From NCBI RefSeq assembly GCF_003226535.1, contig NZ_QKOB01000005.1, positions 62,001 through 126,000 on the forward strand: 64,000 nt of DNA. The letters run 5' to 3'. The position numbers were made by a program, and so were the translations under genes. Source of the DNA: Meiothermus sp. Pnk-1 (GTDB taxonomy: Bacteria; Deinococcota; Deinococci; Deinococcales; Thermaceae). Position 1 is the stretch's first letter; the number at the start of each line of letters is the position of its first letter. Of this stretch, positions 54,507-60,461 are shown piece after piece. Under the pieces are notes generated by a model that had not been told where the DNA came from, ran no database searches, and saw only the letters and a list, made by a program, of their open reading frames with translations.

Positions 54507-54643
54507 CGTTATCTACCCTTATCGCAGTAAGCGGGCGCACCCGGGGTTGGCTGTTGGGGTTGATCGACCGCACATATGGCCCAAGTTGCCAGCAGTAGCT
54601 GGGCTCCTACCAGTTGTTTCGTACATCCCGACCCCCTGTGCCA

Positions 54644-54678
54644 AGGGTAGACAACCCCGCATGACTGGAGCATGACCG
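54644..54678 (-). promoter_or_regulatory. SARP-type promoter A
   Basis: Minus strand: CGGTCAT (54672-54678), 4 nt, CAGTCAT (54661-54667), 11 nt, TACCCT (54644-54649). It matches sites B and C in repeat sequence, period and spacing to the -10. It drives 54506-51525. Confidence 0.75.
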
Positions 54679-54679
54679 G

Positions 54680-54862
54680 CTACTGGGGCCTCTCCTCCGA
54701 CTCGGTTTCCATCTCCTGCTGCAAAAACGCTATCAAGGCACTGAGTTCGGCGAAATAGTGGCGCTCCTCGCCCTGGCTGACCGAGGCCCGCCAGACCACA
54801 CCTTCGGGGGTGGGCTCGTACCAGATGCGAACCACATAGATTTGGGTGCTGGTAGCGGCCAC
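54680..54862 (-). CDS. small hypothetical protein, 60 residues
   Basis: MAATSTQIYVVRIWYEPTPE ... ALIAFLQQEMETESEERPQ, one strand-rich half and one acidic helix, no signal peptide. Not recognised. It starts 11 bp after the upstream secreted protein gene and ends 2 bp from SARP-type promoter A, so it is the last gene of the unit from promoter B. Confidence 0.65.
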   Translation of the reverse strand: MAATSTQIYVVRIWYEPTPEGVVWRASVSQGEERHYFAELSALIAFLQQEMETESEERPQ

Positions 54863-54873
54863 AGTCTCTACCT

Positions 54874-55620
54874 TTAGCGCACCTCGAGGCCCCTGTCGGT
54901 AAACCTGAGCTGCTCTGGCTTCACCCCCAGCACTACCGAGAGCAGCCCCCCGGCGATCTCCTGGTAGGTCTTCATTAGGGCTGCATCGTTTTCTTGCGTT
55001 GCTACCGAGTAACCGGCCAGAGGAAGGGTAGCCATCAGCACGAAAAGCTCATATAGGCGCTGGCGCTCCGGGCCGGTGGCTTTTTTGAACTCGGGCGAGC
55101 CTCCAAACGCTTCTTCCACTACCCTCCACAAACCCAACAGCGCCTGTTCCGAGGGCTCTTCGCCGGTGTAAACCAGGTAGCAGACCCCCACGAAGTACGT
55201 AAAAGCCATGGCCACGTTGTTGGGGCGGTCCAGCCGCCGGGCTTCGTCTTCGTAAAGCTCGAGTCCCAGCTCGAATACTTTGACAAGCTCGGCTTGCTGG
55301 GCTTTGTTCTTGGTTAGGGATTGTGCGAAAGCCTGCGCCAGTAACGGTTTAGGGCCGGGGCTAAAGGTAGTTTTGGGAATCGAAGGAGGTAGGGCGCTCC
55401 CCCCTTGTTTTTGCCGGTTTTGTTTGAAGTACGACTGCATTACAGCCTTATTGATGGCCATCTGGGTTGTATTCATGAGATTGCTGTAGGCCATGTAGAC
55501 GTTGGCCTGGTAAATGTTGTTGAAACTCTGTATGGGAGTGCTCCATCCCCCAGCACTGTACTGAGCCTGCGCCGCGCTCATCAGTGAAAACACCAATAAC
55601 GCCAAAGTGTGCCTGCTCAT
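54874..55620 (-). CDS. secreted hypothetical protein
   Basis: 248 residues from ATG 55620, with AAAGGAGAGCCA upstream. Signal peptide MSRHTLALLVFSLMSAAQAQ, then a mostly helical mature protein. It recalls the DUF6683-type secreted proteins, but I cannot name a function. A longer start (55734) is in the tail of the upstream gene and is rejected. Confidence 0.75.
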   Translation of the reverse strand: MSRHTLALLVFSLMSAAQAQYSAGGWSTPIQSFNNIYQANVYMAYSNLMNTTQMAINKAVMQSYFKQNRQKQGGSALPPSIPKTTFSPGPKPLLAQAFAQSLTKNKAQQAELVKVFELGLELYEDEARRLDRPNNVAMAFTYFVGVCYLVYTGEEPSEQALLGLWRVVEEAFGGSPEFKKATGPERQRLYELFVLMATLPLAGYSVATQENDAALMKTYQEIAGGLLSVVLGVKPEQLRFTDRGLEVR

Positions 55621-55690
55621 TGGCTCTCCTTTCCTGCCAAGGAAATGTGGGTGTCGGCAGGAGGAGGCACTCCACCGACACCCCGAGGTG

Positions 55691-57730
55691 CTACTTCTGT
55701 ACCGTGATGGTGGCGCCGGTAATGGGTAGACCACTCACGGTGGGGCTTCCCTGGGCGCTCACGGCAGTCAGGTTGATCTGATAGGTCTTATTAACTGGAA
55801 CCGTGTTCTGGTCTCCGCCCCCACAGGCGGCCAGGGTCAGGGCCAGCGCCAGGGCCAGGAAGCCCGCCCTTAACGAGCGCATCCGCCACGCCCCCAGGAG
55901 CATCAGGGGCAGCAAGCCAAGCAAGAGAGGCGCAGGCAGGGATGGGAGGCTCTGGGCCTTCAGCACCGCCGGATGGGCCGCCAACGTGCTGGCGATATCG
56001 GCGGCCACCAGGAACTGGCTGTTGCCCGTGCTGAGGGCCAGCGGGCTGGAGAGGGTAAGCGTAAGAGTACCATTGTCGGCGCTAAAGGTGCCGTTGGCAA
56101 TGGGGGTTTCGCCTGAGTCAATCTGGCCGTTGGCGTTGGCATCGCGGATCAGCTTAACCGCCGTAAGGTCTAGGCTGTCGTTGCCGCTGCCACTGGCTTG
56201 CAGGGTGATGCTTTGCAACTGGGTGGCCTGCGAAGGATTGAGGGTAAAAGCCAGCATCGCGACATTGCTCTGGCCCTTGCTGCGGGTGGCATCGGTGGGG
56301 GCGTTGGCGGGCTTGGCTGCGGTGATGGTCAAGCCCGCGGGTGCGGTGTTGAAGGTAGCGGTCACGGTTTGGGCGGCATTCATGGTGACGGTGCAGGTAC
56401 CCGTACCCGTGCAGGCCCCACTCCACCCGGCGAAGGTAGAGCCGCTGGCCGCCGCTGTGCTTAGGGTTACCGAGGTCCCGGCGTTGAACGCAGCAGAGCA
56501 GGTAGCACCGCAGTTGATCCCCGAAGGGTTGCTGGTGACGGTACCGCTGCCGCTGCCGGCTTTGTTGACGGTCAGGTTGAAAGTAGATGTGGGTGCGGTG
56601 TTGAAGGTAGCCGTGACCGACTTGGCTGCATCCATGGTGACCGAGCAGGTTCCGGTACCCGTGCAGGCCCCGCTCCACCCAGCAAAGCTCGAGCCCGACG
56701 CAGGGGTGGCGGTTAGCGTGACCGTGGTGCCCTGGGCGAAGTTGGCCGAGCAGGTAGCGCCGCAGTTGATACCTGAGGGGCTGCTCGTCACGGTGCCCGA
56801 ACCCGTACCGTTCTTGCTAAGCGTAAGGGCAAAGGTAGGGGCCACCAAGGTGGTGAAGGTCTGGGTGGGGCTGTTGAAGGTTCCTGCATCGGTGACGAAG
56901 CGGTAGCGCCAATAGTAGGTGGTAGAGGGGTTCAGACCCGTGAGGTTGGTGCTGACGCTGGGAAAGTTGAGGCTGGTATTGGGTACGTTGGTTCCGGGGG
57001 TGGACGAACCAAAGGATGTGCTGGTTCCGTAATCTACATAGAGCAAGCCGCTTTTGTAGTAGCTGTAGAGGTTGGTGGCAAGGGTAGCAGAGGTAGAGGT
57101 CACACCCGAGCTCTGGGTGTTTTGGAAACTAGCCTGGTAAAAAACCGTTACTGGCTGATAGGGAGTCGCATTGCCATAGGCAGTTTGAGCAACTGCGCTC
57201 AAGCGGTGGGTGTTTGGCCCTCCTAGACCCAATAGCTGCTTGTTGAACCGCACCGGCACCCGAATTTCCACCCACCAGCCCGGGGCCACCGCCGACCAGC
57301 CGTAGTACAGGCCGCCGAATGGCCCTGTGGAGGCCGTCTGTGAACAGGCCCCGTTGGCATCGTTGGTAAAGGCTTCTGTGTACCCATCGCTGAAGCGCAC
57401 CCGGTAGCAATACACCGGATAGGAGGCGCTCACCACCGGGGTCGCACCATCGGGCAGGAAAAAGTCAAAACCCACCGCATCGTTGACACAGCCGCTCACA
57501 TTGGCGCTTACCGCCCGCACATAAGCGATGTCGCCGGTTTTGGGATAGGGTTCATTGGGGTCGGTGAAGTAGCCAACAAAGCTTTGTGAAACCACGACGA
57601 TATTGCCTGTGACTGGACAGGCAGTTTGTAGCGATTGAAAATTACCGTCAAAGTAGGCTCGAGCCGCCAAGCCGCTTCCAAACCACCCCATCATTAGAAC
57701 AAAGGCAATCAAACTTCTTGGCACGATCAT
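55691..57730 (-). CDS. secreted repeat protein with InlB-like B-repeats
   Basis: 679 residues. Signal peptide, a novel N-terminal domain with several Cys, a fibronectin-like segment (ATLATNLYSYYKSGLLYVDY ... GLNPSTTYYWRYRF), two tandem 84-residue B-repeat modules (300-377, 384-461), an EF-hand-like IRDANANGQIDSGETPI segment, a membrane helix near 597-612 and finally a second signal-like stretch with lipobox LAACGGG (Cys636). The last 63 codons, from Met617, may be a separate lipoprotein gene (55691-55882). Secreted or surface-exposed; adhesion is a guess. Confidence 0.75.
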   Translation of the reverse strand: MIVPRSLIAFVLMMGWFGSGLAARAYFDGNFQSLQTACPVTGNIVVVSQSFVGYFTDPNEPYPKTGDIAYVRAVSANVSGCVNDAVGFDFFLPDGATPVVSASYPVYCYRVRFSDGYTEAFTNDANGACSQTASTGPFGGLYYGWSAVAPGWWVEIRVPVRFNKQLLGLGGPNTHRLSAVAQTAYGNATPYQPVTVFYQASFQNTQSSGVTSTSATLATNLYSYYKSGLLYVDYGTSTSFGSSTPGTNVPNTSLNFPSVSTNLTGLNPSTTYYWRYRFVTDAGTFNSPTQTFTTLVAPTFALTLSKNGTGSGTVTSSPSGINCGATCSANFAQGTTVTLTATPASGSSFAGWSGACTGTGTCSVTMDAAKSVTATFNTAPTSTFNLTVNKAGSGSGTVTSNPSGINCGATCSAAFNAGTSVTLSTAAASGSTFAGWSGACTGTGTCTVTMNAAQTVTATFNTAPAGLTITAAKPANAPTDATRSKGQSNVAMLAFTLNPSQATQLQSITLQASGSGNDSLDLTAVKLIRDANANGQIDSGETPIANGTFSADNGTLTLTLSSPLALSTGNSQFLVAADIASTLAAHPAVLKAQSLPSLPAPLLLGLLPLMLLGAWRMRSLRAGFLALALALTLAACGGGDQNTVPVNKTYQINLTAVSAQGSPTVSGLPITGATITVQK
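56348..56833 (-). repeat. tandem coding repeat, two 84-codon units
   Basis: Units at 56600-56833 and 56348-56581 encode nearly the same INCGATCSA ... FAGWSGACTGTGTC segment. The period is 252 bp. Confidence 0.85.
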
Positions 57731-57745
57731 TTTTCCTTCCGACGG

Positions 57746-58120
57746 TTAGGGTTGAACAAGCTGGATGTTGATGCCGCTACGGGGCGGTTTTACGATTGCA
57801 GGATTGCCCTGGCTATCCAGGTAAATCCCAATCAGGCCCTGGGCCTCGTTCTGGGCAACAATAACGTAATCACCGGCTGCTAAGCCTTCTATACTGAAAT
57901 TGCCGCTTCTGCCAGAGGTGTTGATGCTGGTGGTTTTACTTTTGTCTTGGTCACACGAGTCTGTAGCGGCCAGGTAGAAGCAGGCCAACACCACAGTGCC
58001 CTGTACGGTGGCCCCTGCAGGAGCCGTGACAGTGCCGGAAAAGCCGCCGCCGCCCCCACCCCCACAAGCGCCTAAAGTAAGCAAAATCCCAAGAGCCAAC
58101 AAAGCTTGCATCGGCCTCAT
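57746..58120 (-). CDS. small lipoprotein sharing a domain with the protease
   Basis: 124 residues. Lipobox LGACGGG, Gly run, then VQGTVVLACFYLAATDSCDQ DKSKTTSI and a beta-rich C-terminal half. The same module ends the subtilase at 58218. First gene of the unit driven by SARP-type promoter B (58147-58181), with GGGAGGGAGG before its ATG. It is 15 bp upstream of the repeat protein gene. Confidence 0.8.
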   Translation of the reverse strand: MRPMQALLALGILLTLGACGGGGGGGFSGTVTAPAGATVQGTVVLACFYLAATDSCDQDKSKTTSINTSGRSGNFSIEGLAAGDYVIVAQNEAQGLIGIYLDSQGNPAIVKPPRSGINIQLVQP

Positions 58121-58146
58121 ATGATCCTCCCTCCCTCGCGGTGCCT

Positions 58147-58181
58147 AAGATAGGAAAAGCAGCATGACTGGAGGATGACCG
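58147..58181 (-). promoter_or_regulatory. SARP-type promoter B
   Basis: Minus strand: CGGTCAT (58175-58181), 4 nt, CAGTCAT (58164-58170), 11 nt, TATCTT (58147-58152). Start site expected near 58140, 20 bp before the ATG of the first gene. Confidence 0.8.
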
Positions 58182-58217
58182 AACAAAACAGACCCCCGCG
58201 GGGGTCTGTCCGAAGGG

Positions 58218-60359
58218 TTATCTGGATCGGGCTTGCTCGAGCCACCTTCGCTGGTCTGGCGTCAGGCGGGACAGGTTGTCGCTCAGCACATCTAGCTGGA
58301 AGTTGGCCTGAAGGTTGCCAGGCCGGACGGCCGCCAAGTTGCCGCTATTGTCCACCACCCCGCCCAGGTAGTCGCCCTGGTCTACATTCTTGTTGTTGTT
58401 CAGGTCTTTCCAGCCCAGCACTGCGTAATCGCCGTCTGTCAAATCGGCAATGGCGTAGCTGGCCGAGGTACCACCCTGATCGATCTGGATGGCCTTGGAG
58501 CGGCTAGGGTCGCAGTCGCCCTGGGCGATATAACAGGCCAGTACCACCGTACCTTGCACGCTGGCATTGGTGCCGCTCCCGACCCTCAGGCTAAGGGGCA
58601 GGTTGGCAAAGGTGCTACCCGAAGTGCCCCGCACTGTGAGGGCATAGGTTCCGTTGGGAACACTGGCGGCTACATTCAGGGTCAGGGTGCTGTCGTTCGA
58701 GGAGGTGTTGGCCGGGTTGAAGCTCCCGCTCACCCCGGTGGGTGCGCCTTGTAGGCTCAGGCTCACCGCTCCGCTAAATCCGCCGCTGCGGCTGATGGTG
58801 ATGGGTACATTCACGCTGCCGCCTGGCTGAGCGGTCAGGATGGTATTGGTAGTGGACAGGCTGAAGCTCGAGACCGTGCCACCCTGCACCGCAGCCAGGG
58901 CCGCATTGGCGTCAATGAGGCCCGCCCCGCAGTCGTTGCCGCTGGGCCGGCTGCACTGGGTGGCGGTCAGAGGCCTGGCGGTGGACTTCAAGATCTGCAG
59001 GGCCTGCGCAGTATCGAGGTTGGGGCTAAGGGCCTTCATCAGGGCCACCACCCCCGCCACGTGGGGTGCGGCCATCGAGGTGCCGTTCAAGAATTTGTAG
59101 TTGAACTGCTTGGTCTGGTCGTCGAACCCCAGGCTCAGCACCCCATCCGAATAGCCGTCATTGTTTAGATCTTTGCTCACATCCCCGCCCGGCGCCATCA
59201 CATCCACGCGGGCGCCGTAGTTGGAGTAAGGTGCGCGGGCCCCCGCATAGTCGGTGGCTCCCACGGTGATGACGTTGGCGCAACTGGCCGGGCTGTAGAG
59301 CGAGGCATCGTCGTTTTCGTTGCCGGCGGCCACCACCACCACCACCCCCTTACCGGTTACCAGATTGATGGCGTTCTGTCGGGCGGTGGTGCAGGTGCTC
59401 TTACCCCCCAGACTCATATTGATGACCTTGGCCGGGTTGGCGTTGGTGGGCAGGCCGGGCACCGGCTCGCCTGCGGCCCACAGGATGGCATCCACCTGGT
59501 CGGCCACGGTGGCCCCCAGGAGGCCAATCACCCGCACGTGCAGGAGGCGGGCTGACCAGTCTACCCCGGCCACGCCCTGGTTGTTGTTGGTCGCAGCCCC
59601 CACCGTACCGCCCACGTGCGTGCCGTGATAGTGGGTGCTTTGCTCGTCGCCCACGTCGTAGGGGTCGGGGTCGCGGCCATCGCCGTCGCCTGCGTTGGCA
59701 AAGGGGTCGGCACCGCTGATGGGCGAGACCATGTCGTAGCCCGGTACCAAGCGGCTGTCGATGTCGGGGTGCGACCGGGCTGTGTTGCTAGGGCTGAAGA
59801 GTACCCCGGTATCCAGGATGGCCACCACTACGCTGTTGGAGCCCGTGGTGCGATCCCAGGCCTGAGGCAGGTTGATGGCGGAGTAGTGCCACTGCAGATC
59901 GTAGTACTCGTCGTTGGGCGCAGCCAGGGGCTGCTCGAGCCAGTTCAGGTCGGCAGAGGCCACGTCCGAACGGCTGCGAAGGGCGGCCAGCAAGGCCGGG
60001 GTCTCGGCTTCGCTTACATCGGCTCGGTACAGGGCCGTGCGGGGCAGCCCCAAAGGCCGCACTTGCTGGAGTTCCACCGGCCTACCCTGCACCTCTAGCC
60101 GCAGGCTGCTCACCGACTGGAGGCTGACCCCCCCCTGAAACTCTACCAGCACCTCCCCCGGTATAAAGCGCGCCTCGCCCGTGCGCCGGAGTGGGCTCGG
60201 CTGGGGGTCAATTTGAAGGCGCTGTCCGGTGATGCTGGAGCCCAGCGAAACCGTCCCGCCAATGTTGCCCGACCCTCCCCCAATACTGCCCGACCCTCCC
60301 CTCGGGCAAGCCGTCAGTAGCGTCAGCAAGATCCCGCCCAATAACCACCTTGCATACAT
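58218..60359 (-). CDS. subtilisin-family (S8) lipoprotein protease
   Basis: 713 residues. Lipobox LLTACP, a propeptide-like region (SLRLEVQGRPVELQQVRPLG), then the S8 domain with Asp in VVAILDTGVL, His in HYHGTHVGGTVG, oxyanion Asn in VVVAAGNEND and Ser in LNGTSMAAPHVAGVVALM. After it come a beta-sandwich (490-585) and the C-terminal VQGTVVLACYIAQGDCDPSR module shared with the 57746 lipoprotein. A membrane-anchored extracellular protease, with its own SARP-type promoter C. Confidence 0.93.
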   Translation of the reverse strand: MYARWLLGGILLTLLTACPRGGSGSIGGGSGNIGGTVSLGSSITGQRLQIDPQPSPLRRTGEARFIPGEVLVEFQGGVSLQSVSSLRLEVQGRPVELQQVRPLGLPRTALYRADVSEAETPALLAALRSRSDVASADLNWLEQPLAAPNDEYYDLQWHYSAINLPQAWDRTTGSNSVVVAILDTGVLFSPSNTARSHPDIDSRLVPGYDMVSPISGADPFANAGDGDGRDPDPYDVGDEQSTHYHGTHVGGTVGAATNNNQGVAGVDWSARLLHVRVIGLLGATVADQVDAILWAAGEPVPGLPTNANPAKVINMSLGGKSTCTTARQNAINLVTGKGVVVVVAAGNENDDASLYSPASCANVITVGATDYAGARAPYSNYGARVDVMAPGGDVSKDLNNDGYSDGVLSLGFDDQTKQFNYKFLNGTSMAAPHVAGVVALMKALSPNLDTAQALQILKSTARPLTATQCSRPSGNDCGAGLIDANAALAAVQGGTVSSFSLSTTNTILTAQPGGSVNVPITISRSGGFSGAVSLSLQGAPTGVSGSFNPANTSSNDSTLTLNVAASVPNGTYALTVRGTSGSTFANLPLSLRVGSGTNASVQGTVVLACYIAQGDCDPSRSKAIQIDQGGTSASYAIADLTDGDYAVLGWKDLNNNKNVDQGDYLGGVVDNSGNLAAVRPGNLQANFQLDVLSDNLSRLTPDQRRWLEQARSR

Positions 60360-60426
60360 GGCCTACCTCCTGCTCCTGATCAAGCGCCCTCTTGCCTTAG
60401 AAGAAAATCCGGCAACCATGTCGCGG

Positions 60427-60461
60427 AAAATAACCCCCGGGGCGTGACTGAAGGATGACAG
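60427..60461 (-). promoter_or_regulatory. SARP-type promoter C
   Basis: Minus strand: CTGTCAT (60455-60461), 4 nt, CAGTCAC (60444-60450), 11 nt, TATTTT (60427-60432). It lies between the SARP gene stop and the protease gene. Confidence 0.75.

Follow-up and report, generated by a model that had tools for sequence, protein, structure and literature searches.

Putative SARP operators at promoters of secreted-protein genes in Meiothermus sp. Pnk-1 and their recurrence in the Thermaceae

Introduction

SARPs have been viewed as factors that control the making of antibiotics in Streptomyces, and a 2024 review describes the family as genus-specific (PMC10972967). The operators of ActII-ORF4, DnrI, PimR and SanG are composed of heptameric direct repeats with 4-bp spacers and usually lie over the -35 region (PMC10972967, PMC5930380). 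The AfsR box extends from -40 to -19, and in the cryo-EM complex R92 contacts T-38 in one repeat and T-27 in the downstream one (PMC10936776). SARPs share the OmpR-type winged helix with PhoB, whose PHO-box motif in E. coli is CTGTCAT in 11-bp repeat units; PhoP and AfsR of Streptomyces are competitors for sites that overlap (PMC4415409). A response regulator with a SARP domain was reported in Deinococcus deserti, its targets not being known (PMC3564903). A literature search for SARP operators in Thermus or Meiothermus found no paper.

The three sites described here, from Meiothermus sp. Pnk-1, are very probably the boxes of an AfsR-like SARP encoded beside them, where they would replace the -35 element and drive the gene of a secreted subtilase, a lipoprotein operon and a beta-propeller operon. 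Thus, secreted-protein genes of an unrelated bacterial group are probably also under SARP control of the Streptomyces type, since the same arrangement recurs beside related activators in other species of the phylum.

Three operator-like sites and their downstream genes

The window, which is the whole stretch of 64,000 nucleotides that was analysed, contains exactly three matches to CNGTCAT-N4-CAGTCAY-N11-TANNNT, all on the minus strand and without mismatches (Table 1). The first-pass annotation had placed three such sites at precisely these coordinates, with constant spacing and differing -10 hexamers, and the pattern scan reproduced all of this: N4 separates the heptamers and N11 leads to the TAnnnT hexamer at every site, and no two hexamers are alike. 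Like described SARP operators, the putative operators are heptameric direct repeats with an 11-bp period. The SARP gene claimed for the same cluster is also present; it contains a BTAD, and operator 1 starts 3 bp past its stop codon, with the subtilase gene downstream.

The pattern was absent from 100 dinucleotide shuffles of the window. The annotation had also proposed a genome-wide scan, with random placement as the outcome that would speak against it. Such a scatter was not seen: a slightly looser pattern matched only operators 1-3 across all 36 contigs of the genome (3.51 Mb), and a reversed-pattern control over the same 3.51 Mb gave no match. When two mismatches were allowed, three extra weak and scattered matches appeared, as against two in the reversed control. 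A sigma-70-type -35/-10 pair was sought at operators 1, 2 and 3 and was absent from all three.

Table 1. Putative operators and neighbouring genes in the window
Feature	Position	Strand	Description
SARP-family activator gene, 1135 aa	60465..63872	-	N-terminal winged helix, BTAD, AAA/NOD ATPase, TPR
Putative operator/promoter 1	60427..60461	-	CTGTCAT 60455-60461, CAGTCAC 60444-60450, N11, TATTTT 60427-60432
Secreted/lipoprotein S8 subtilase, 713 aa	58218..60359	-	Pfam Peptidase_S8 8.2e-53; presumed operator 1 target
Terminator-like hairpin	58188..58209	-	AGACCCCCGCGGGGGTCT then TTTTGTT, read from the sequence; between subtilase gene and operator 2
Putative operator/promoter 2	58147..58181	-	CGGTCAT 58175-58181, CAGTCAT 58164-58170, N11, TATCTT 58147-58152
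Small lipoprotein, 124 aa	57746..58120	-	CarboxypepD_reg-like; first gene past operator 2
Large secreted repeat protein, 679 aa	55691..57730	-	Flg_new_2 repeats; second gene, presumed operator 2 operon
DUF6683 protein, 286 aa	54874..55734	-	Pfam 2e-59; third gene, presumed operator 2 operon
Putative operator/promoter 3	54644..54678	-	CGGTCAT 54672-54678, CAGTCAT 54661-54667, N11, TACCCT 54644-54649
Beta-propeller lipoprotein, 368 aa	53400..54506	-	now first gene past operator 3, 137 bp away
CarboxypepD_reg-domain protein, 620 aa	51525..53387	-	next after beta-propeller gene

The ATG of the subtilase gene lies 67 bp past the -10 of operator 1, and that of the small lipoprotein gene 26 bp past the -10 of operator 2. 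The small lipoprotein, repeat-protein and DUF6683 genes follow operator 2 at close spacing. In relatives (loci L105 and L089) operator 3 is followed first by a gene for a lipoprotein of 363-364 aa and then by the beta-propeller gene. The lipoprotein gene is missing here (window 54507-54643); the original target gene of operator 3 appears to have been lost in Meiothermus sp. Pnk-1. A subtilase, lipoproteins, a repeat protein and a beta-propeller protein are not the antibiotic or secondary-metabolite clusters of classic SARP use, but such control is a usage of SARPs and not a criterion of the protein family.

The SARP protein

The protein matches the Pfam families BTAD (3.3e-15), AAA_16 (1e-15) and several of the TPR type; Trans_reg_C was not among its listed Pfam matches, and its DNA-binding domain matches EmbR by profile. 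An OmpR-type DNA-binding domain is thus followed by BTAD and, past this SARP domain, by a NOD/AAA ATPase and a TPR region, as in large SARPs of the AfsR type. Profile matches include AfsR (8hvr, 8jke, 8k60) and EmbR (2fez), both of which were found in this way because a direct sequence search against the PDB returned TPR proteins only. A fold search with the predicted model also placed AfsR and EmbR on top, at the low confidence given by a TM of about 0.37-0.39 and a mean pLDDT of 64.6.

The five closest relatives among named records are all from Meiothermus (72-82% identity). The SARP is 61-84% identical to its orthologues in the genus g3, and its best match in its own genus (genome G001) reaches 43%; the SARP cluster may have moved between genera.

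Recurrence and geometry in the Thermaceae

The pattern GTCAY-N6-GTCAY-N11-TAnnnT had 73 matches, which fall in 20 of the 50 Thermaceae genomes, and its reversed control did not match in any of the 50. With both gaps left free (81 geometries), the per-genome counts summed to 173, of which 73 had the 6/11 geometry; the remaining 80 geometries share about 100 matches. Of 79 repeat-plus-hexamer matches at the fetched loci, 73 had the 6/11 gaps, and 11 bp was by far the commonest repeat period, a count that is not independent because most of these loci had been picked with the motif itself. An independent check used loci anchored on SARP genes; a scan of these for GTCA-N6-GTCA, with the hexamer left out of the pattern, returned the same constant N11 register to TAnnnT. 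The repeats thus keep a fixed register to the -10 in the -35 region, on start-site coordinates that are an assumption. A logo of the 73 sites retained the repeat cores and the TA...T, both of them fixed by the search pattern, with a variable N11 spacer and variable bases past the -10. At four sites (L082, L092, L113 and L114) the -10 is ambiguous because TAnnnT hexamers overlap, 5 bp apart.

The sites follow the SARP. They occur in each of the 18 genomes with a close SARP relative (E <= 1e-100), as against 2 of the 32 genomes without one, with a single site each (Fisher p about 1e-11, a value that ignores shared ancestry). Within the genus g4 (27 genomes), sites occur in 3 of 3 SARP-positive and 0 of 24 SARP-negative genomes. 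About 53 of the 73 sites lie no more than about 12 kb from a SARP gene, and many start 4-38 bp past its stop codon. Sites also adjoin SARPs in other families (L156, L159, L162, L164). The two genomes G007 (L092) and G021 (L111) have one GTCAY box each without a close relative of the window SARP; these may be relics or boxes used by another SARP.

About 20 sites have no SARP gene within the fetched flank, and these include two conserved distal target types. One is a secreted protein of 442-452 aa with the box upstream, encoded at eight loci in as many genomes (L084, L088, L090, L096, L102, L103, L108, L111; one shortened by a contig end), for which no Pfam match was found. The other is a DUF11 protein, present in four genomes. 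Also, TTHB210-like proteins are encoded by the first genes past the boxes at L079 and L113 (Thermaceae); a literature search on TTHB210 found no paper.

Other repeat words beside other SARPs

A sequence-free test, the second independent check of the geometry, was applied to the 700 bp after each of 47 distinct SARP genes, in which an 8-base repeat (7/8 identical) followed by TAnnnT at a similar distance was sought. Repeats with an 11-bp period were found in 18 of the 47 segments, and those with periods of 7-10 and 12-15 in none or one; first-order Markov shuffles of the segments gave a mean of 0.56 and a maximum of 3. A chance origin of the sites was rejected on the empty shuffles, their uniqueness in the genome, the empty reversed control, the rarity of other geometries and the 18/47 of this test.

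Beside SARPs from other clades, comparable positions hold 11-bp repeats of a different sequence. TTGCMACG repeats adjoin SARPs with the helix LRREL (L120, L171, L045), and ATGACG repeats adjoin those with LRQVLYQ (L170, L172). Genome-wide scans found 11 TTGCMACG repeats in 9 genomes and 2 ATGACG repeats, the controls being zero for both. A SARP paralogue in the same genome as the window (L120:7177, G000:C23) is followed, 20 bp past its stop codon, by TTGCAACG repeats and a TAGCCT hexamer, a putative second SARP operator of different wording.

Within the GTCA clade, SARPs with Ala, Ser or Val before a conserved Gln mostly occur with GTCAT boxes and those with Arg with GTCAC boxes; L097 departs from this with a GTCAC/GTCAC site, as do L116, L156 and L159 with mixed half-sites. 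In the T dialect the logo has a conserved CTCCA linker. The covariation of helix and dialect is only suggestive, because nearly all Arg-type GTCAC SARPs fall in one subclade of the tree, and it was dropped as independent proof. At L156 (G055:C13:11000-30900) an Arg-type and a Ser-type SARP gene lie upstream of five boxes, some of which combine one GTCAC half with one GTCAT half, possibly for mixed dimers. It is possible, though slightly less likely than not, that the Deinococcota SARPs form separate regulons with one promoter architecture and differing words (GTCAT, GTCAC, TTGCMACG, ATGACG) set by recognition-helix residues, such that in the GTCA clade the residue preceding the conserved Gln would go with T at base five when it is Ala, Ser or Val and with C when it is Arg. 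If true, the DNA word of a protein with the SARP fold could be read from its sequence as from a code.

Alternative explanations

The main rival is the PHO box, because the E. coli PHO-box heptamer is CTGTCAT, a likeness absent from the first-pass annotation. On this view a PhoB-like protein would bind the sites as PHO boxes or as those of a different response regulator in the OmpR family, and the vicinity of the SARP would be incidental. Operator 1 has the identical heptamer, the 11-bp unit is the same, and PHO boxes are bound head to tail by OmpR-type winged helices (PMC4415409); the shared fold and the competition of PhoP with AfsR also speak for this rival. In contrast to a PHO box, the distribution of the sites follows SARPs. 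PhoB-like regulators, none of them above the PhoB curated cut-off, are found in 50 of 50 Thermaceae genomes, as against the 20 with sites, and being universal they cannot alone explain so patchy a distribution. No recognised phosphate gene was among the downstream targets examined, which were subtilases, lipoproteins, cupin and SnoaL proteins. The sites are neither upstream of pst/pho genes, of which one pstS-like gene was examined, nor wherever PhoB is. That gene, the only PBP_like_2 (pstS-like) gene found in the genome, has CTGACAA-N4-CTGACAA upstream, and the other repeats of other SARP clades likewise argue against PhoB. The PHO-box reading is therefore disfavoured and is considered unlikely. 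The repeat with an 11-bp period upstream of the pstS-like gene, CTGACAATCTCCTGACAA (L176, G000:C15:38229), may be the real PHO box of this genome.

It is less likely still that the SARP binds the repeats as a repressor or autoregulatory element and not as an activator replacing the -35. A SARP with a negative regulatory function, Atr32, has been described (PMC10972967), but no basal promoter that could be repressed is apparent here, since no -35 element was seen at the three sites; moreover, the box sits in the activator register of AfsR, and no two-repeat box was found in the SARP gene's own upstream stretch inside the window. That the conservation is merely inherited neighbourhood sequence without a regulatory role is scarcely credible: many loci are orthologous between species, but the N11 spacer and the bases past the -10 vary where the cores (fixed by the search pattern) and both spacings hold, and the boxes stand before genes of several unrelated families and turn up again at loci far away, as well as in further families within the order.

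Proposed mechanism and comparison with AfsR/SARP systems

The preferred reading, boxes of an AfsR-like activator, draws on the sequence, geometry, rarity and conservation of the sites, on their co-occurrence with SARP genes and proximity to them across genomes, and on the relatedness of the protein to AfsR; rarity, co-occurrence and proximity favour the putative SARP operators already proposed in the first-pass annotation. Speaking against this reading are the heptamer shared with the E. coli PHO box, the two genomes with a site but no close SARP relative, the roughly 20 sites whose fetched flank has no SARP gene, the altered downstream gene of operator 3 and the low-confidence SARP model. We infer binding, activation, adaptation of sigma in the mode known from AfsR, and gating as follows. 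Two SARP winged-helix domains would lie side by side, one on each GTCAY repeat and 11 bp apart, at -39 to -24, where a -35 element would be. The housekeeping RNA polymerase would be held by the SARP dimer, on which sigma region 4 would rest, so that sigma region 2 could engage the fixed TAnnnT -10. The secreted subtilase gene, the lipoprotein/repeat-protein/DUF6683 operon and the beta-propeller operon would thereby be activated, and the ATPase and TPR parts presumably gate SARP activity through a signal.

If this is right, a second phylum becomes available for testing the AfsR activation mechanism, with heat-stable proteins and a well-defined operator and regulon. The natural repeat variants would be data on DNA choice by SARPs, and otherwise uncharacterised secreted proteases and lipoproteins would have a likely regulator.

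The operators of ActII-ORF4, DnrI, PimR and SanG likewise have heptamer direct repeats with 4-bp spacers and an 11-bp period. Unlike those, the sites described here have another heptamer, two repeats (the main operator of PimR has three) and one constant distance to the -10 over 73 sites. AfsR of S. coelicolor is similar in its winged helix, BTA domain, NOD ATPase and TPR, and the afs box in its two 11-bp direct repeats at the -35 position (PMC10936776). If TAnnnT is assigned to -12 to -7, the two repeats have their GT at -39/-38 and -28/-27, in the same register as the AfsR box. Residues were equated by a constant offset of 12, for which a conserved Trp (W74/W62) and the alignment with EmbR serve as anchors; W74, R87, T88 and R92 of AfsR would thereby be equivalent to W62, A75, Q76 and R80 here. 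By this alignment the base-contacting R92 is kept as R80, whereas the position of T88 is Gln and that of R87 is Ala. The core is GTCAY here and GTTYA in the afs box, and the TAnnnT -10 at a constant distance is a further difference. The putative targets also differ, being a secreted protease and lipoproteins in one phylum and antibiotic regulators in the other.
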